This document shows, one piece after another, positions 1 through 63,800 of a stretch of 64,000 nt of DNA. The stretch is taken from NCBI RefSeq assembly GCF_040183065.1, contig NC_091119.1:186317543-186381542 (forward strand). Reading direction: 5' to 3'. Below the pieces are notes generated by a model that had not been told where the DNA came from, ran no database searches, and was given only the letters and a program-made list of their open reading frames with translations. The stretch comes from Periplaneta americana (taxonomy: Eukaryota > Arthropoda > Insecta > Blattodea > Blattidae). The number at the start of each line of letters is the position of its first letter. Within the stretch, counting starts at the first letter, position 1. The position numbers and the translations under genes are program-made.

Positions 1-440
1 TCTCCGCATATGATCCACATATGTTAATGTCGTCTATTATCTGATTTCTTCTGCCCGAACTTTTCTCCCGGTCACCATTCCTTCCAGTGCATCCTGGCAG
101 TTTAATCTCACAGTGACTCAATGAATTCATTTTTCTCTTCCTGATCAGTTTCAGTATCATTCTTTCTTGACTCGCGCTTTCCAACAACCTTCATTTCTTA
201 TTCTGTCTGTCCATTTCAGACGCATCATTATTCTCCATATTCATATTTCAAATGCTTGGAATCTTTTCTCTTCACTTCGTTGTAATGTACATGTTTCTGC
301 TCCATGCAACGTCACATCCTACACAAAGCACTTCACTAGTCTCTTCTTTAGTTCTTTTTCCAGAGTTCCGGAGATTATGCTTCTGTTTCTTTTAAAAACT
401 TCCTTTTCCATTACCATCCTTCTTTTGAATTGCCTGGCAG
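1..440 (-). mobile_element. Decayed family C non-LTR retrotransposon, C-terminal part
   Basis: Read on the minus strand, this matches the family C coding part seen again at 54206-55322. Pieces read as KELKKRLVKCF, then HGAETCTLQRSEEKRF, then KWTDRIR, and lower in the window DALEGMVTGRK. These are post-RT segments of an RTE/CR1-type reverse transcriptase. Several frameshifts and stops break it. The 126-aa frame on the plus strand here is only its shadow. The element runs off the left edge of the window. Confidence 0.7.
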
Positions 441-1109
441 CTGCTCATTTTATAACTTATTGTATTATCTGTTCACTTTCATTAATTATTATTACAAATA
501 AAGATAAGCATGAAGCTCTTTTTAACCTAAGTTACTATCATTACTAGCTTACAATTTCCATCCAATGTAGGCCTACGCTTTTTTTTTACCTCGTTTTGGA
601 CACAAGAGAAAATTTCTGTTTGAAATGAGATATTGAGGTTTATACTGTACATGTAGATACGCAGGAAAAAATCATACAAGCTGCAGCACATTCGAAACAT
701 TGTAAGCATTCACACAGCAGCCACAAACCCACAAAGAGCCAAAGAATCCGACATGTGGAAGCCAAGTATCCCCTGTGTGGGAACATAGACGCAACCCGCG
801 CGGCTTTTTCATCGATGATCTGGTCGCTGCCAGCAAATACAAATCAGGGGCAAGGTATACATAACGCAAAGCAGGGGTCAGCCATAGCCGAGAGTGATAG
901 AATGCAAGGAAGAGGTAAAATCCAGTGGCTGACCTTACCTTTCATCTTTTTTTTATATTATATAAAAAAGTTTTATGGTTGCTATAGTTACGCTCATGTA
1001 CAGAACAACATCATGTTTGGAGTCACTGTTCTTTTCCTTTTTACTTGAATGCAGAATCTATACTGAAAGTAAAACTTAAAGTTTTCTCGTAATTTTCGTT
1101 TTTACGAAA
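441..1109. other. Unassigned stretch
   Basis: No recognisable gene or repeat boundary. Short open frames here (up to 97 aa at 755-1048) have no motif I recognise and read through AT-rich DNA. Confidence 0.5.
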
Positions 1110-2042: not shown

Positions 2043-3217
2043 ATGCCCATTTCTGACACCAATTTTTGTTATACTATATCTGACACCAAAATTTATTATT
2101 GAGCTCTATCATATCTGACACCAGTGTTTTGTTGTGCCACTTACCATGACAAGGGCGGATGGCTTATCTTTGAGATAGTCGCGAGTTATAATCTACTATC
2201 AATATAACACAAATGAATCAGACACTGCGTTATACTTCCTAACTCTCTAATATGATTTATAAACTGTACTTGCTTATGGATATGAGGGATTTCTACTTAA
2301 AATGTGATCTCAGGCTTTCGAAATAATCACAAATGCAGAAATTCACTAATACTAAGTTTATTAATAAGATATCAATTTATTACAGATAGAATATTGAGAT
2401 TGAACGATTTAGAAAGTATGAAAATTTCTGTTAATTTTAAAGTACCAAAATGAACTAGTTAAATGTAAAGTCTAAAGATTGAACTGATGATTTTACTCAC
2501 AGTAGATAGTAGGGCGAACCTGGTGCTGTTCGCAGTTGATGCCATTTTCTGAACTTCTTCCTGGACGTCGGGAAGTTACGACCGCTACTGCATGACCGCT
2601 GTCTTGACCAGTAACTAATGACCGCGTTTTGGACGTTTCATGTCCATTTATAAGTTCTGGAACCGCGTCTATTGTGACGTAACAGAGTGACGCTATTTTA
2701 CCCGCGAATCTTCTAAAAAGACGGTATTGCATTCACTAAACACGACGCTTCTGATTCTTAACCATTATTTCAAATCGGCGATTCTGGTCGTCACTTGGAA
2801 CAATACAGACTTAAGGAACTCTCACGACTGAATCTCTGTTTTTGACTTGACCAATGGAAATCCAGAGTTGCGGAATCATCGCCAATTAAAATGTCTCGCG
2901 AGAGACGCTGCATAATCTTTCGTTATATGTCAGCTGTTGCTAAGACTGACTTCGTGCTACGAGTAAAATGCAAGCGTACGCATTTCTACCTTGTTCAAGG
3001 ACTGGACTGTGCTGAGTTGACTAAGCTGTATTGTGTAATCTATCGAAACAGGAAGCGATCTCTGTCGTATGTCAAAACATGTCTGAATGCTGAATATTTT
3101 AATAAGTACGATTTCATTACTTTAAAATAAAGTGAAAATATATTTCTTATGATCATAACAAAGTTATGATTGCTTATCATAATCCTTGGGCACAACAACA
3201 ATATTACTCTATCACAA
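2043..3217. other. Unassigned stretch with two unrecognised short ORFs
   Basis: It holds three copies of a tatctgacacca-like word (2054-2125). A 79-aa minus frame (2732-2493) is followed by an actgtgagtaaa-like splice-donor match. A 79-aa plus frame lies at 2891-3130. Neither protein has a motif I recognise. I see no polyadenylation or promoter support strong enough to call an exon. Confidence 0.35.
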
Positions 3218-11972: not shown

Positions 11973-12640
11973 GTTAAATAACCAACTAAAAATAAGAGCT
12001 ATTCTTAAAGGGTTATCATAATAATAAAGCCAACAGTACATATGGGCAACAACGCAATGGCTAAAACGTGTGATCTTCAGACCATATTCTTGTATCCCTT
12101 ACTGTAGTTACTGTAGATTTAAGTGCTATTAAAGTTAGGCACTGCTGCAACCAACGCTACTGAAGTAGTGTGCGACATTTTACGTGTTGTTGTACTTAGG
12201 TCTCTTGTATCAGTTTGTTCGCGTTTAATTGTAATGTTTAGCGGTATACCAAAACTTCGTGCCGGGCTATTTTATGCAACATAATGGACATAAATTTAGT
12301 CCTTGAGAGAGAAAATATGTTTGTATTTTCATATAGAGAGAAAGACAGTCTGTCAGCTTTCCAAATAACGGCACTGCCTCATTGGACAAAGCATAACAAA
12401 TACACAAAGTGAAAACAAAAACAGACCACAAAAGAGAAATGTGGAGAACGAACAAAAAAGGGAAATTAAGTACAGATAATAGCATACACATAACAGGCCT
12501 AAACATAGTAAAGAAATAGATTAGACGTTCAAACAAAAGTTCTTCCTTCTTAGGAAACAAAGTACAGGCGGTATTTTAAAATGGCAAGTGATTCTCTGTT
12601 TAGTTATAACTGCATTTTATGGAAAGTAAATCATTAGTTT
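11973..12640. other. Unassigned stretch
   Basis: It begins with gttaaataaccaacta, which looks like the 3' end of an insect SINE. Beyond that I see no element or gene; the 97-aa minus frame (12560-12267) has no recognisable motif. Confidence 0.4.
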
Positions 12641-12659
12641 ATTATATTCACTTTACCCT

Positions 12660-13400
12660 ACGTAAACCTCATCCACCTACTTTTATCTCTTCTCCTATCC
12701 ACTTCACTCCCACATTACTGCCACCTCACCCGCCATTTTTTCTCTATCTCAATCCCATCATTTTCTCTGCCTCTATCCCATTATTTCTTCTCTGTGTGTC
12801 ATTTTTCATGTCTGCCTGAATCCCAATATTCTTGCCTCATGTATATGCAATTATTTTTCTATCCCTATTCCATCTTTTTTCTATATTTCCAGCCCATCAG
12901 ATTTTCTCTATCGCTTCTCTGTCTGTATGCTACTACTTTTATCTATCTCTATCCCATTATTTTTCCCCCATCTGTATCCCATTATTTTTTTCTTCTATCT
13001 CTATCCCATTACTTTCCTCTTTCTGTACCCCATTGTTTTCCTCTCTCTGTACCCCATTATTTTTTTCTGTATCTGGTCTCCATTATTTCTTCTCTTTCTC
13101 TATCCCATTATTTTTTTCTCTATCACTGTCCCATTATTTTTTCTCTATCTCTATCCCATTATTGTTCTCTATCTCTATTTCATTATTTTCTTCTTTATCT
13201 CTTCCTCATTATTCTCTACTCCATTACTTTTTCTCTATCTCTCTCCCATTATTTTCCTTTATCACTTCTCTATTATTTGTCTCTATCTCTATCCCATTAT
13301 TTTTTTCCTCGATTTCTCCCACATAATTTTTTTCTTTATTTCTACCCCATTATTTTTTCTCTATCTCCATCATATTATTTTTCTTCTTACAACTAACACA
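12660..13400 (+). repeat. Pyrimidine-rich minisatellite (tctctatcccattatttttt type)
   Basis: A degenerate unit of about 25-28 bp, built on tctatctctatcccattatt, is repeated some 25 times. All three plus frames stay open because the strand is nearly free of purines; the 164-200-aa FLSLSHYF-like frames are artefacts. The unit returns at 20455-20590. Confidence 0.9.
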
Positions 13401-13404
13401 TTCT

Positions 13405-13636
13405 TAGATTCAGAAAACTAGTCAATTGAAAAAGTATACTTCTGAATAATTCATTATCTATTTGTAGCTTTATCTTTCCCTTAAATCTAAAGAAAGGAGG
13501 TATTTTTTTTAATTCAAATTCCTGTAACTCTGAAAATATTGAGAATACGACACATGTTTATATGACAGTTTTTGCTCAGAATGTCTTCGGAAATAAGCTC
13601 AGTAAATGGCGGTTACTCTTCGTGAATCACCCTATG
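13405..13636. mobile_element. Truncated TA-type MITE (copy of 32531-33259)
   Basis: The right part of the element at 32531-33259 is present: ctgtaactctgaaaatattg, tttttgctcagaatgtctt, then the terminus cgtgaatcacccta. The left end is absent. Confidence 0.7.
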
Positions 13637-27949: not shown

Positions 27950-29470
27950 ATTTGAATATACCTTTCCCCGCATCACCTTTCAGTTCCTTCTCCTAATTTT
28001 TCCTCTCCACTATATCTGCTTACCATTTTCTTTCTCTTTTATCCATCTTCACCATTTCTTCTCCGTATTTCTCCTCCTCTACTCCTATGTCTTATCTTGC
28101 CATTCATTTTCCTTCTCGTCATATATCTTCATCTAATTTTTTCCCTCTGTTCTTTCTTCTTTGCTCTCTGTTCTCGCATCTTACCTCTCTGCTCTATCTT
28201 CTTTACTCTCTATTCTCTTTTCTTTGCTCTGTTCTCTCTTCTTTACTCTCTCTTCTCTCTTCTTTACTCTCTGTTATCTCTTCCTTACTCTGTTCTCTTC
28301 TTTACTCTGTTCTCTCGTCTTTACTCTGTTCTCTCGTCTTTACTCTGTACTCTCTTCTTTACTCTGTTCTCTCTTCTTTACTCTATATTCTCTTTTCTTT
28401 GCTCTGATCTCTCTTCTTTACTCTCTATTCTCTTTTTTTGCTCTGCTTTCTTTTCTTTACTCTCTGTTCTCTTCTTTACTCTGTTCTCTTATTTACTCTG
28501 CTCTCTCTCTTCTTTACTCTGTTCTCTTCTTTACTCTGTTCTCTTCTTTACTCTGTTCTCTTCTTTACTCTGTTCTCTCTTCTTTACTCTGTTCTGTCTT
28601 CTTTACTCTGTTCTGTCTTCTTTACTCTGTTCTCTCTTCTTTACTCTCTGTTCTCTTCTTTACTCTGTTCTCTCTCCTTCACTCTCTGTTCTCTCTGCTT
28701 TACTCTATATTCTCTTCTTTACTCTCTGTTCTCTCTTTACTCTCTGTTCTCTCTTTACTCTCTGTTCTCTTCTTTACTCCGTTCTCTTCTTTACTCTGTT
28801 CTCTCTTCTTTACTCTGTTCTCTCTTCTTTACTCTCTGTTCTCTCTTCTTTACTCTATATTCTCTTTTCTTTGCTCTGATCTCTCTTCTTGAATTTCTGT
28901 TCTCTTTTTATTTGCTCTGCTCTCTTTGCTTTACTCCCTGTTCTCTTCTTTACTCTGTTCTCCATACTTTACTCTCTGTTCTCTCTTCTTTACTCTCTGT
29001 TATCTCCTCTTTGCTCTGCTCTCTCTTCTTTGCTCTCTGTTCTCTCTTCTTTGCTCTCTGTTCTCTCTTCTTTGCTCTCTGTTCTCTCTTCTTTGCTCTC
29101 TGTTCTCTCTTCTTTGCTCTCTGTTCTCTTTTCTTTGCTCTGCTCTGTCTTCTTTGCTCTCTGTTCTCTGTTCTTTGCTCTCTGTTCTCTTTTCTTTGCT
29201 CTCTGTTCTCTTTTCTTTGCTCTCTGTTCTCTTTTCTTTGCTCTCTGTTCTCTTTTCTTTGCTCTGTGTTCTCTTTTCTTTGCTCTCTGTTCTCTTCGCT
29301 TTCTGTTCTCTTATCTGTGCTCTTTTTCTCTCTTCTTTGGCCTTTGTTCTTTCTTCTTCGCTCTCTGTTCTCTCTTATTTCCTCTTTGTTTTCTCTTCTT
29401 TGCTCTCATTTCTTTTTTGCTCTTTGTTTTCTCCTCTTTGCTCTTTCTTTTGCTCTTTCTTTTGAATTGC
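27950..29470 (+). repeat. CTCT-rich minisatellite, ~1.4 kb
   Basis: Units of about 17-21 bp on the themes tctttactctgttctctct and tctttgctctctgttctct are repeated roughly 70 times. The two variants (TTTACTC early, TTTGCTC late) are partly segregated along the array. All plus frames are open (up to 359 aa, SLLYSVLF-like) and are artefacts. A near-pure pyrimidine strand of this length can adopt triplex (H-DNA) structure. Confidence 0.95.
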
Positions 29471-30370
29471 CTGTCCTTACGTGCACCCTTATAAACACTA
29501 TCTTTCTTCTCCCTTAGACCCACGTGACATACATAAATGTAATCTTCGAAATTCTATCAGCCTTTATGTTTACTCCAAATGAAGCATTGTATTTGGAATA
29601 TCCTCTTTAAATCTGCAGCATACAGCGAACGGTTTTTAATAATATCGCAGAAGTGGAAATTTTGCAGTAAAATAAATAAGCTCTATCGTTATTAGTTTGT
29701 AAGTTGGACTGAAGTCCGTAATCATGTGGAAAATTTAATAGTAAGGAAGATGAGACATTTCGAGGGAAAAAATCTTTATTGTTTTTTTTTTCCGACTCCA
29801 TATTAAATTAAGAAGCGGGATGCTGTTTTCATGTGGAACTTTTATTGCAAGCTGTTAGTCCAGAACAATAACTGACTTTAGCAGGACCGTGGCGTCGTCC
29901 GCTGTTATAAATTCCGTTAATTAAAACTTGTTCGTCCAGTAGTTGGACTCAGCGATAACAAAGTTTTCTTTGTACCTTTCTATGCGAATTGGCGTTGTAA
30001 TGTTTGTGGACATTTGAATGCTCTTTTACCTCATTAGACAGTTCTGCGGTCTTGTGGTTACAATCAGAGGTTCGGCGTTCGAATCTCAAAGTCAGGAATC
30101 CCTTTTGTGGTCGCCAGCATCCTCCACAATCCCTTTGCTCGAACATCCCAAAGGGCTCGGTCATTCCTGGGCTCCTTGTGTGCGTTATGTTTCCTTTGAT
30201 ATGAAGCATTACAGATTAATGGCTAGAGGTCTGTACGTAATACAAACGTATCTAACAGGTCTTCATACACTTCTGAATATGCACAATATCGTTTAGATGA
30301 AACAAATGGATGTAAGCATTTTATTATAAGTTTTAATTTCTAACTGAGGATTAGTTCCGAACTGTTTTGA
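29471..30370. other. Mostly unassigned, with a possible SINE fragment
   Basis: At about 30038-30180 gcggtcttgtggttacaatc then ggttcggcgttcgaatctc looks like a decayed tRNA-like head with a B box. The remainder shows nothing recognisable. Confidence 0.35.
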
Positions 30371-30374
30371 TCAA

Positions 30375-31513
30375 GTAATTGTATATATTATTTTAATGTA
30401 CCGAAGTTTTCGGACTCGCACTTAACCCAAGTAAGACTCAAGCTATAATTATTGGACATAAGCGTTTAGTTAACTCCCTTAATAACAGCAATCTTTCAGT
30501 TGTTACCCTTATCAACACGCTAATCCCTTATTCATCTGTCGTAAAAAATCTTGGCTTCTTTTTTGATAATAATCTAAGTTGGAATTTTCAAGTTAAACAA
30601 ACGATAAAAAAAAAAAATCTGTTCCTCCATTCACTGTTTGAGTCGCTTGAGAAACTTCTTGCCCCAGCAATTAAAACTTACTTTAGTACAAACCCTAGTA
30701 ATGCCGCACTTCGATTATTGTGACGCTTTGTTAAGTGATCTAAGTTCTGAACTGTCAGTCAAGTTACAGCGAGCTCAGAATATGTGCGTCAGATACGTGT
30801 GCAACATCCGACGATATGACCACATATCACTGTCCTTCGCAAGTCTTTCGTGGCTCCGACTTAAAGAACGCAGAACTTTACATTCTTTGTCTTTACTCTT
30901 TCGAATTCTGCACACCTTAACACCAAATTACCTTTCATCTTGTTTCTTTTATCTATACTCTAACCACGACGTAAATACCAGATCACTTATCTGTGGCACG
31001 CTAAGTATACCTCTTCATAGAACATCTTGTTATTCATCATCTTTTACAGTATCCACCTCGCGTCAATGGAATTCCTTGTCACAAAGTATTAGGGGCTGCA
31101 AGACAATAAACACCTTTAAGAACAGCTTAAAAGATAACCTTATTAGCATTTCACTCCAATCATATTGATTTAAACTATCACTGACTACATTGTTACTTCT
31201 TTCTTTTAGACATCATCCTGATTGTGCTGTACTTTCAAAATTGTCTCATAATAATCTCTTTCTATTATCTAATATTATTTGAAATATATTAACAACATTC
31301 TATGTATTTTAGCTTAATTCTGCTACACAGTTTATTTCAGTGTTTAATTAATAGTTCATAGTATTTTGTTGTTTAATTCGTAAATAACTCTTGTATACAT
31401 GTAACTCTAATCTAAATCAAATTGTTGAATTCTTTGTAAGTTCATGCATATGAATATACTCTTTTTGCTGGTTGAGTGGAAGAGAAGGCCTTAACTCTGC
31501 CAGCTAAAATAAA

Positions 31514-31550
<37 letters not shown>
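30375..31550 (+). pseudogene. CR1/jockey-like LINE, RT C-terminus and 3' end
   Basis: The reading NPSKTQAIIIGHKR, then KNLGFFFDNNLSWNFQV, then PHFDYCDALLSDLSSELSVK, then LQRAQNMCVRYVCNIRRYDH, then WLRLKERRTLHSLSLLFRIL is a textbook CR1/jockey RT thumb and tail. The frame 30638-31168 gives its last 176 aa intact. A frameshift at the poly-A run near 30610 breaks it from the upstream part. The 3' end is ggccttaactctgccagcta then (ATT)n at 31513-31550. Confidence 0.85.
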
Positions 31551-31553
<3 letters not shown>

Positions 31554-31555
31554 TA

Positions 31556-32215
31556 CATATGATATTTCCATGCAGATATTCTGCGTCATCATACGATGAA
31601 AGAGAAATGGAACGGAGAAAAATTCTCTCCGGCGCCGGGATTTGAACCCGGGTTTTCAGCTCTACGTGCTGACGCTTTATCCACTAAGCCACACCGGATT
31701 CCACTCCGGCGTCGGAAGAATCGTCTCAGTTTTAAGTTCCATCTCTTGGGTTCCCTCTAGTGGCCGCCCTCTGCACTACGTCATAGATATCTATGAACCT
31801 AGGATCGAAGTCCGTTCCATTACTCTTTCATCGTATGATGACGCAGAATATCTGCATAGAAATATCATATGTACTTCGGTACATTAAAATAATATATATG
31901 ATATGCGTAAATCACTTCGTGATTTAAGACGGCGTTTATTCCGTCGGATCCCGGCCAACTAGTCACTCATTACGAGTGCACCTCAGCACATGTGTGGACT
32001 TCGGTCCTAGGTTCATAGATATCTATGACGTAGTGCAGAGGGCGGCCACTAGAGGGAACCAAAGAGTTTGAACTTAAAACTGAGACGATTCTTCCGACGC
32101 CGGGGTGGAATCCGGTGTGGCTTAGTGGATAAAGCGTCAGCACGTAGAGCTGAAAACCCGGGTTCAAATCCCGGCGCGGAGAGAATTTTTCTCCGTTCCA
32201 TTACTCTTTCAAGTA
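31556..32215. mobile_element. tRNA-like foldback retroposon, locus 1
   Basis: Two inverted copies of one ~205-bp arm (31611-31814 and 31988-32191) each end in a tRNA-like cloverleaf. The plus-strand one (about 32114-32179) reads ccggtgtggcttagtggata at its start and agcacgtagagct in the anticodon arm (GTA, with C instead of U at position 33). The acceptor, D, anticodon and T stems all pair, including ccggg ttcaaat cccgg. The word ccattactctttca follows each arm in direct orientation (31818, about 32190). The core at 31946-31971 holds cccggccaactagtcactca and a cactc...gagtg hairpin. The left edge is the complement of 31824-31871. Confidence 0.75.
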
Positions 32216-41388: not shown

Positions 41389-41709
41389 GGGGCTACTACC
41401 TGAAAGCTAGATTTGTATAATACATTCGATACTGGAGATACGTTAACAGAAAGCCACAATTTAAAGTCACACAAGTATTGTGTGCACTCACAGTTGAGTT
41501 CTGGCGTCTTGTCAGCTCATGTGAGTTGTGTGGATATAAAAGGAAAAATTGTGACGGTGTCGTGTATAGTTCCTGGGGTAGCTCAGTCGGTAGAGCGTTC
41601 GCGCGCTAAGCGAAGGGTCCCGGGATCGATACCCGGCTCCGGAACACTTTTTCCTTGAAATTATTCAAACCTGCTTTACAGGGAGCTACTACTTGAAAGC
41701 TAGACTTGT
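41389..41709 (+). mobile_element. tRNA-bearing retroposon with terminal direct repeats
   Basis: This 321-bp unit is flanked by a perfect 14-bp target duplication, aagataaaatacag (41375-41388 and 41710-41723). Its two ends are direct repeats of about 30 bp (ggggctactacctgaaagct and gggagctactacttgaaagc). Between them lies a tRNA-like cloverleaf at 41569-41645. No ORF longer than 80 aa. The layout is that of a miniature terminal-repeat element rather than an ordinary SINE, whose tRNA part would lie at the 5' end. Confidence 0.75.
41569..41645 (+). other. tRNA-like sequence (anticodon position reads GCT)
   Basis: A 77-nt cloverleaf: acceptor gttcctg/ccggaac with one mismatch, D arm gctcagtcggtagagc, anticodon stem ttcgc/gcgaa with loop gcgctaa, and T stem ccggg/cccgg with loop atcgata. 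Position 33 is C, not U. It also lacks the long variable arm expected for tRNA-Ser(GCU), so I regard it as a repeat-borne tRNA-like sequence rather than a working tRNA gene. Confidence 0.7.
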
Positions 41710-54203: not shown

Positions 54204-54555
54204 TATAAGCAGTAACGTGAGCTGCTGCCAGGAAGTCAAAAGGAGGATAGCAATGGCAAAAGAAGCTTGTAACAGAAAAGAAAGAACATCTTCTGCGGAC
54301 CTCTGAAAAAAGAACTAAGGATGAGACTAGTGAAGAGCTTTCTATGGGGCAGAAACATGAACATTACGACGAAGTGAAGTGAAATGACTAGAAGTGCAGT
54401 ATTTGAAATGTGGATATGGGAAGAATGGAGCATGTGAAATGGACTGACAATAAGAAATGCAGCTCCTGTAACAAGAGTAGGTGATGAATGAATAATGCTG
54501 AATCTGATTAAAGGAAGAAAAAGAAATAAGTTGGGCCACTGGCTAAGAAGAAACT

Positions 54556-55122
54556 TAATATTTGAGGAGAAAAATTCGCTCCAGCGCCGAGGATCCAACC
54601 CAGGTCCTTGGTTCTACGTACCAAGCGCTCTGACCACTGAGCTACGCCGAATTCAATCCACAGCATCGGATCGAACCTTCCTCCTTCAGTGTTTCCCTTT
54701 GTGGCCTGACGCCAAGTTAGGCATATTAATTATTAATTGTCAACATTACAGAGATTATTCTATAGGACATATTAATAAATCCATAATATTCTCTTAGCTA
54801 GCAGTGCATCATAACTGCGGAATCCCGGCCAAACAAGTCACTCAATTGAGTGCGCTCCTAGTATAATGGCAGTTGACACTAGACATATACGTCAACATAT
54901 ATATGCCTAACTTGGAGTCAGGCCACAAAGGGAAACATTGATGGAGGAGAGTTCGATCCGGTGCTGTGGATTGAATTCGGCGTAGCTCAGTGGTCAGAGC
55001 GCTTGGTACGTAGAACCAAGGACCCGGGTTCGATCCCCGGCGCCGGAGCGAATATTTCTCCTCAAATATTAATTGTCAACATTACAGAGATTATTCTGTA
55101 GGACACATTAATAAATCCATAA
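54556..55122. mobile_element. tRNA-like foldback retroposon, locus 2
   Basis: A perfect 12-bp duplication, taagaagaaact, flanks it (54544-54555 and 55123-55134) within the family C coding sequence. Two inverted ~170-bp arms (54556-54726 and 54900-55072) each carry a tRNA-like cloverleaf. A ~50-bp block starting attgtcaacattacagagat follows each arm in direct orientation (about 54736 and 55072). The core holds cccggccaaacaagtcactc and the perfect palindrome cactcaattgagtg. No ORF. Confidence 0.85.
54976..55048 (+). other. tRNA-like sequence (anticodon position reads GTA)
   Basis: The cloverleaf is fully paired: acceptor ttcggcg/cgccgga, D arm gctcagtggtcagagc, anticodon stem ttggt/accaa with loop acgtaga, T stem ccggg/cccgg with loop ttcgatc. 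The loop acgtaga is identical to that of the locus-1 cloverleaf (near 32114-32179). C at position 33 and no intron argue against a working tRNA-Tyr gene. The inverted partner is at about 54572-54650. Confidence 0.75.
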
Positions 55123-55319
55123 TAAGAAGAAACTGCCTACTGAAGGATGTACTGGAAGGAATTGTAAACGGGAGAAGAGTTTGGGGCAATAGAAGATATC
55201 AGGTGATGGACAACATTAAGATACGTAGATCGTATGGGGAATGCGGAAAATAGGGAAGATTGGAGAATGCTGGATGGATGGAATGTAAATACATTAGGGG
55301 TCAAATCATACCGGATGTA

Positions 55320-62179: not shown

Positions 62180-63800
62180 ACAATATTGTAATAGTATCTT
62201 CTTTCTCTCTTTTATTCTAATATTTCTCTTACTTTCCTTTTCTCCTGCTTCTCCATTTTTATTTTCTTTCCGATTCATCTCCCAGCTTCTTTCTACCCAA
62301 CAATTCAAGCTTACTTCTCCTCAACATCTCGCTATTTCTCAATCTCCTGTTTCCCTCTTCCTCTTTGTTACGGATCCTGATATTTTCTCATCCTGATTTT
62401 TCTTCAACCTCTCATTTTTTCTCCACTTTCCATTTTCGGGAAGCCCTACTTCTCTCCTTTTCGCTCACTTTTCCTTTTCCTACCACCCTATTTTCGCCTT
62501 ATCTCATTTCCCTTAATTTACACATCTGAATTTTATTATCACAATTTTCTCTTTATTCTATCATTCTCCACCGCCCTATTTTCCACCACTGTCCCATTTT
62601 CCCCCACCGTTCCATTTTCTCCCAACGCCTTATTCGCCCCCCCCCCACACCGTCGCATTCTCGCCACTGCCTCATTTTCCCCACAGTCTCATATTCCTCC
62701 ACTGTTCCATTTTCCTCCACCGTCCCATGTTACCCCCACCGTCGCATTTTACTCCCACACAGTCGCATCCCTCCGCATTGTCCCATTTCTCTTCACAGTG
62801 TCGCATTTTCCTCTATACCGGCCCAATTTCCACCACCATTTTTACTCTCCCTGCCATTTTTCCGCACCCCCATTATCTCATTTTACCCATCGTTACATTT
62901 TATCAGTCCAATTTTTTTCGATTGTTGCATTTTCCCTTTCATCGCTTATTTTCAGTCACCCTACTTTTGTCCGTAATCCCACTTTTGACCATCTCCTCAC
63001 TTCTGACCATCTTTCCACCTTTGACCATCTTTCCACCTTTGACCATCTTTCCACCTTTGACCATCTTTCCACCTTTGACCATCTTTCCACCTTTGACCAT
63101 CTTCCCACCTTTCACCATCTTCCCACCTTTCACCATCTCCCCACGTTCGATCATCTCCTTCATATCCGACCATCTTCCTACATTAGACCACTTTCCCACC
63201 TTTGAAGATCTTCCTATTTCTCCACATCTTATATTTTTTCATGCTATTTTTCATTACCACTGTCCTTACAGTATGTCGTTGTTCTTTCCTTTTATCTTCT
63301 TAGTTTCGACCATAATCCTACCTTTAACCATCTCCCACGTTAGATCATCTTCTCTATATTCGAACACCTTCCTACATTCGACAATCTTCCCATCTTTGAC
63401 ATCTTCCTATTTCTCCACATCTTATATTTTCTCATCCAATTTTTCAGTAGGCTATCACTGCCCTTATGTGGTTGTTCTTTCCTTCTATCTTCCCACCTTC
63501 CAACATATTCGCACGGTCGATTATCTCCTCCATATTCGACCTTGTTGCTGTATTCGACCACCTTCCCACCTTTGATCATCTTCCTATTTTTCCATATCTT
63601 ATATTTTCTCATACTATTTTTCAATACCGCTCTCCTTTCTTTCATGATGCTTTGCATCTTGTTACAGTCGTTTTTCCTCTTATGCCACCTGTTTTTGTCC
63701 TTGTTTTGACCCATCACCCCCTTCTTCTTCGTCTTATCTCTTTCTTAGATTTCTTTTCTTCTCTTCATCGATCACATTATTCTTTCTGCCTTCTATCAGA
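62180..63800 (+). repeat. Pyrimidine-rich degenerate minisatellites
   Basis: Up to about 62770 the theme is ccaccgtcccattttccccc. At 62985-63130 a clean 18-bp unit, catctttccacctttgac, repeats about seven times (hexapeptide STFDHL in one frame). A larger block, from the ttcgaccatcttccta-like words to tatattttctcatactattt, recurs about three times at 63190-63640. The 282-aa and 135-aa frames here are artefacts. The last 200 bp of the window show nothing assignable. Confidence 0.85.

Follow-up and report, generated by a model that had tools for sequence, protein, structure and literature searches.

A tRNA-like, probably Penelope-mobilised, non-autonomous element with inverted and sense pieces in the genome of Periplaneta americana

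The insertion at 54556–55122 and its parts

The window (the whole 64,000-nucleotide stretch of Periplaneta americana DNA analysed) contained an insertion at 54556–55122, bounded by a perfect 12-bp target-site duplication TAAGAAGAAACT. Both copies of the duplication (54544–54555 and 55123–55134) were identified by duplication analysis and inspection of the flanks. The left part of the insertion was an inverted arm (A′, 54556–54726, minus strand), whose outer end is called S1 below and whose alignment included position 54555, a base common to the duplication. The inverted and sense pieces met at an inner joint at 54727, where the alignments stopped at 54726 and resumed at 54728. The sense piece, all on the plus strand, comprised an internal copy of a tail (R, 54734–54787; repeat, segment map and folding), a core region (C, 54788–54900; segment map), a sense arm (A, 54901–55072; arm alignment and segment map) and a terminal copy of the tail (55070–55122; repeat, segment map and end mapping), which ended at the second outer end, S2. 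The inverted arms (54555–54726, minus strand, and 54901–55072, plus strand) were 93.6% identical over 172 nt. A direct repeat behind each arm, taken in the initial annotation as 16 nt long, was present but extended over ~61 nt at 95% identity.

A mirrored cloverleaf had been proposed from the letters of the sequence, and tRNA-Tyr(gta) models were indeed placed in both arms, at 54578–54651 (minus strand, 34.7 bits) and 54976–55049 (plus strand, 49.1 bits), each exceeding the Rfam tRNA gathering score of 29. Box-like sequences lay within 54976–55049, the starts of what we take to be an A-box-like and a B-box-like motif being at 54983 and 55027, and a run of five T followed the tRNA-like domain in the family consensus and in a second family of the window (locus 1, described below). 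Such a run may stop RNA polymerase III. The domain could serve as a polymerase III promoter, or as a processing or binding signal.

The core cccggccaa...agtcactc was present as described, and a conserved motif, CCCGGCCAA..AGTCACTC..GAGTG, common to locus 1, lay at 54824–54852 on the plus strand. A perfect palindrome, CACTCAATTGAGTG, was found at 54839–54852 of this copy but was not the state of the family: the consensus carries AACT at its centre and is therefore better interpreted as a looped hairpin. None of 15 predicted core pairs was changed on both sides among five sequences, and covariation therefore did not support a core structure.

The flank of the insertion was a LINE coding remnant. 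When the flanks were joined, a single frame read LGHWLRRNCLLKDVLEGIVNGRRVWG across the insertion point, with the 12-bp duplication TAAGAAGAAACT on both sides of the insert, as annotated. Alignment to the joined flanks also revealed a LINE copy without the insert at 3–460 (minus strand), a paralogous empty site, which was continuous past the insertion point (72% identical across 480 aligned columns, with a few small gaps close to it). The duplication, the continuous LINE frame and the insert-free copy indicated that a single insertion event brought in the whole mirrored unit, bearing out the initial reading. Another family member (L018, 943–2667) was flanked on both sides by portions of a LINE akin to the interrupted one in the window. 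Its insertion point was a different one, so this LINE family has received the element at least twice.

The repeat family, its outer ends and its target sites

The genome (3,231,669,367 bases in 91 contigs) was searched with a 567-nt query of layout A′-R-C-A-R. The family was abundant: a first look gave 5927 candidates, 40 of these were scored, and 30 loci were retrieved; L029 and L030 overlapped L019 and L024, giving 28 independent loci including the insertion at 54556–55122 (L001). All copies came from this one search and the sample leans to the layout of the query, so that the top matches share A′-R-C-A. The consensus unit was 334 nt long, non-coding and arranged head to tail as tail R, core C and tRNA-Tyr-like arm A. 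Insertions at the mapped loci spanned about 1.3 to 4.1 unit lengths, a partial tandem (pseudo-LTR) organisation. The sum of the two arm lengths was nearly constant and, like the distance between inner-joint positions, striking, but both were discarded as products of the 567-nt query of this layout.

Both orientations were detected by alignment within 27 of the 28 independent loci. In the remaining one, L028, the second, inverted piece was 9 nt long and seen by eye only. The five loci retrieved through R-C-A-R alone (L024–L028) all carried an inverted piece (L028 by eye), in differing layouts. The inner junctions varied among copies, and the mirror is no fixed design in this family. The idea that the inverted arm is always present and ends at the same base thus held, in this sample, for its presence, and nearly so for its outer end, but not for its inner end.

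Both outer ends were mapped in 25 of the 28 loci. As read on the unit, S1 lay at position ~5, after ...CTCAAATATTAA, and S2 54 nt downstream at position ~59, after ...CCATAATATT. With a cut at unit position 20 dividing the two, each of the 25 mapped insertions had one S1 end and one S2 end; the S1 ends were at positions 1–12 and the S2 ends at 54–64 in all but one copy, L020, whose second end, at position 42, failed to reach S2 by 17 nt. By eye, L028, outside these 25, also fitted the pattern, whereas L019 and L027 were exceptions, in which one end was at S2 but the opposite end matched neither site. Since the two outer ends of an insertion fall near different sites, S1 and S2, only one of them carries the tail, and no copy with the tail on both ends, or on neither, was seen among the fetched loci. 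In the query search a two-tailed copy would score at least as high as those recovered, and a tail-less copy would match the score of seven recovered without a right-hand tail (L004, L012, L014, L015, L017, L018 and L021). No poly(A) or simple-repeat 3′ end was present at the outer ends inspected.

A duplication was detected in 24 of the 25 mapped copies, L005 being the one with none at its ends. Fourteen duplications were of 12 bp (two with one mismatch) and the others of 9–16 bp. A duplication score of at least 9 was reached by 22 of the 25 copies as against 10 of 476 shuffled flank pairs, exceeding the chance expectation. From 32 columns inspected in the 14 copies with 12-bp duplications, a target motif was drawn, with RRC ahead of the duplication and mostly GYY behind it. 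Oriented by the S1 end, the columns had a purine at −2 (13/14) and C at −1 (10/14), T as the first (9/14) and A as the last base of the duplication (7/14), and then G (8/14) and a pyrimidine (14/14). This motif nearly matches its own reverse complement and so is palindromic, in keeping with cleavage of both strands by a single enzyme.

The stretch between S1 and S2 of this family was predicted to fold as a stem-loop (−12.4 kcal/mol, z −3.76, equalled by no shuffle). The corresponding fold of the locus-1 tail was weak (−10.5 kcal/mol, z −1.05), being equalled by 30 of 200 shuffles.

Locus 1 (31554–32211, plus strand) belonged to a second family of the same plan. It too carried a tRNA-Tyr model, the mirrored architecture, the core motif (downstream of S2 in both families) and a one-sided outer extension, the left outer piece running 43 nt past the stop point of the right one; the claim of two loci with one plan was therefore confirmed. 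Their unrelated look was confirmed only in part, since the arms were different but the tRNA-like parts were 72–76% alike and the core motif was common to both. No duplication was found by eye in the flanks of locus 1. On its left this locus adjoins a (TTA)n microsatellite (window 31510–31560), which may have erased the duplication. When 169,372 bases were scanned for motifs and with ARAGORN, the element bodies of the loci being set aside, no third family of this plan was seen. Matches to the core motif in two IMG/VR contigs (L031 and L032) were dismissed as chance; the contigs were very similar to each other and the L031 match lay within a 671-aa frame.

No hammerhead was detected in Rfam scans down to E 10, and CTGANGA was absent from the sense strand of the consensus and of the locus-1 unit. 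A hammerhead is usual in Penelope-like elements (PLEs), in the pseudo-LTR, and is not part of the definition by an autonomous ORF. PLEs are further marked by a telomerase-like RT and, in canonical members, a GIY-YIG endonuclease, encoded by the element or provided by a partner. Another ribozyme was likewise rejected, as no ribozyme family was among the Rfam matches down to E 10. Matches to MIR7533 and MIR6217 fell on the inverted repeat, far under their gathering scores.

Inner joints and a model of integration

Inner joints were analysed at 24 loci, leaving out L008 (ambiguous overlap), L019, L027 and L028. The pieces joined at scattered unit positions. Overlap of at least 1 nt was found at 18 of the 24 joints and of at least 3 nt at nine, compared with 43% and 5% of random joins of the consensus, an excess that is somewhat flattered because gapped alignments underlie the observed values whereas the null counts perfect matches. 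The other six joints had 1–8 extra bases rather than overlap. The inner joints thus favour microhomology.

The A-arms within an insertion shared rare variants (those in at most 5 of 61 copies) 34 times, against a mean of 4.9 when labels were permuted, none of 2000 permutations being as high; for all variants the figures were 69 and, under shuffled labels, 22. This sharing indicated that a single template, or a small number of them, supplied all the pieces of an insertion, which would fit an RNA circle or a homogeneous multimer, and subfamilies may explain some of it. In one locus four units long (L024, 1198–2562), the second and fourth A copies shared four variants and other pairs none or one, a hint that its template held more than one kind of unit, as if two types alternated.

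We consider it fairly probable that this is a non-autonomous element with a 334-nt unit, moved by a PLE, in which both target strands prime on a multi-unit RNA at S1 and S2. A symmetric, probably dimeric endonuclease would cut the two strands with a stagger of 12 nt, each at the same short motif, and each freed 3′ end would prime reverse transcription inside the RNA (a multimer or an RNA circle), S1 being used by one strand and S2 by its opposite, with the tail stem-loop between these sites. At 54556–55122, arm A′ would be the S1-primed piece. The two cDNAs would then extend upstream to unequal lengths and join internally, often through microhomology, and the product would be an inverted and a sense piece with a one-ended tail and the duplication outside. 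Priming at the target is favoured because the outer ends are the fixed points. Since synthesis would start upstream of the core, a copy holding the core together with S1 and S2 needs more than one unit, and this need could explain the tandem state. In Anolis, PLE activity required template RNA downstream of the start sites (PMC11167929), and it is from this that we guess at a part for the core in binding. Several observations weigh against the model: the missing hammerhead, the ends of L019, L020 and L027, the lack of a duplication at L005 and of a visible one at locus 1, the weak fold of the locus-1 tail, the six joints with extra bases, and the origin of all copies in a single search by a query of this layout.

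The initial annotation had attributed the shared plan to a mechanism rather than to chance or later rearrangement, and a mirror that arrived as one insertion, in two families with a common plan, agrees with that. The mechanism it offered as an example, template switching on a self-priming RNA, was not supported: it predicts an internal hairpin turn and leaves the fixed spacing of 54 nt between the outer ends unexplained. More broadly, the RNA or the first cDNA might fold back and be copied into an inverted repeat, as inverted repeats with junction palindromes were interpreted in rotifer PLEs (PMC3846280), but neither the two outer ends, each beside a duplication, nor joints linking distant unit positions (distances affected by the query and so unused as a test) are predicted by self-priming, which we hold to be very unlikely. 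Inheritance by copying from a master element already mirrored, or from a foldback or terminal-inverted-repeat DNA transposon, is the least likely of the readings weighed. The layout is broadly similar in most fetched copies, as such a master would give, but that similarity is selected by the 567-nt query; the inner joints differ in detail, L024–L028, found only through R-C-A-R, have other layouts, and the two ends are unlike, the tail being on one. A terminal-inverted-repeat or MITE DNA transposon was rejected in its own right, since the tail at a single end and arm lengths that vary among copies leave no matching terminal inverted repeats.

Twin priming yields a similar inverted-plus-sense layout, in a minority of cases and with a second priming point that varies. 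The family could accordingly be a SINE driven by a LINE, a tRNA-headed multimer in which the inversion is an occasional 5′ inversion of the L1 type. The tRNA-like domain, the duplications of 9–16 bp and the microhomology at the inner joints would suit such an origin, but nearly every mapped copy has its two outer ends at fixed points within the unit, the ends inspected lack a poly(A) or simple-repeat 3′ terminus and the target motif is symmetric; on balance we think it unlikely. Two-strand priming is preferred because it explains together where the outer ends lie, why only one of them has the tail, why the inner joint varies and why the target motif is palindromic.

Relation to known elements

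The anatomy of the copies, taken with published biochemistry, suggests that the element is probably a tRNA-like, Penelope-mobilised, non-autonomous one. Partial tandems with an inverted terminal piece, a tail on one inverted end, short duplications and two internal start sites bounding the tail are all features of PLEs, such as PAc of Anolis and the Pen families of rotifers (PMC11167929, PMC3846280). In vitro, the Anolis protein cuts and extends both strands, starting at two adjacent internal sites that bound the tail; in the data presented the strands were alike in start site, neither showing nor excluding pairing (PMC11167929). In rotifer PLEs a pseudo-LTR is inverted, one of the two pseudo-LTRs may carry a tail and the duplications measure 8–10 bp; the inversion was attributed there to self-priming, with a call for experiments (PMC3846280). 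The cockroach unit, unlike PLEs, is non-coding, 334 nt long and equipped with a tRNA-like domain, with no hammerhead found, and the element has a symmetric target motif and mostly 12-bp duplications.

Metazoan non-LTR retrozymes resemble it in being non-coding tandem repeats of ~300 nt for which RNA circles were proposed (PMC7229834). Theirs are type I hammerheads, whereas none was found in the cockroach unit, which is therefore not a retrozyme. A tRNA-like head, high copy number and duplications are shared with tRNA-derived SINEs, e.g. those of Blattella germanica (PMC9191728), from which the element differs by its inverted piece and by ends that, where seen, had no poly(A) or short-tandem-repeat tail. 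Judged by their position at S1 and S2, inside the tandem unit, the outer ends are not of the SINE type (an RNA-like 5′ head and a LINE-type or A-rich 3′ tail). Helenus, a tRNA-bearing TRIM, likewise has a tRNA-like domain within its terminal repeat, but its LTRs are direct, with a primer-binding site and duplications of 4–5 bp (PMC10886601), as against inverted ends and mostly 12 bp in the cockroach. Short non-autonomous Penelope elements were mentioned in butterflies (PMC6685494). No tRNA-like, ribozyme-free element with Penelope-type ends was found in the literature searched; an unnamed entry may exist in Repbase or Dfam.

The origin of inverted, tailed PLE insertions is not settled by the papers on rotifer and Anolis PLEs, the later steps of Anolis PLE integration having been left for validation (PMC3846280, PMC11167929). 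The many short copies with clean duplications in a single assembled genome are a natural record of the priming strand and site, of the length of cDNA runs and of joining. If a PLE enzyme is the source of the activity, a non-coding RNA of 334 nt on which two start sites are defined would make a compact substrate for tests, and the tRNA-like domain would supply a Penelope counterpart of SINEs and of tRNA-bearing TRIMs. We give an even chance to a stronger proposal, that these are very abundant ribozyme-free, tRNA-like satellites of PLEs with obligate pairing, in which a symmetric dimer primes one target strand at each of the two sites beside the RNA stem-loop. If pairing is obligate, the inverted structure of PLE insertions would arise as the ordinary outcome of two-ended integration rather than by accidental self-priming.

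Other repeats were noted in passing. Models of tRNA-Ser(gct) at window 41572–41645 and at 3088–3161 of L006 possibly represent a separate tRNA-Ser-headed repeat family, and the long low-complexity open frames of the window (12638–13421, 27956–29517 and 62381–63575) are probably tandem DNA repeats rather than genes.
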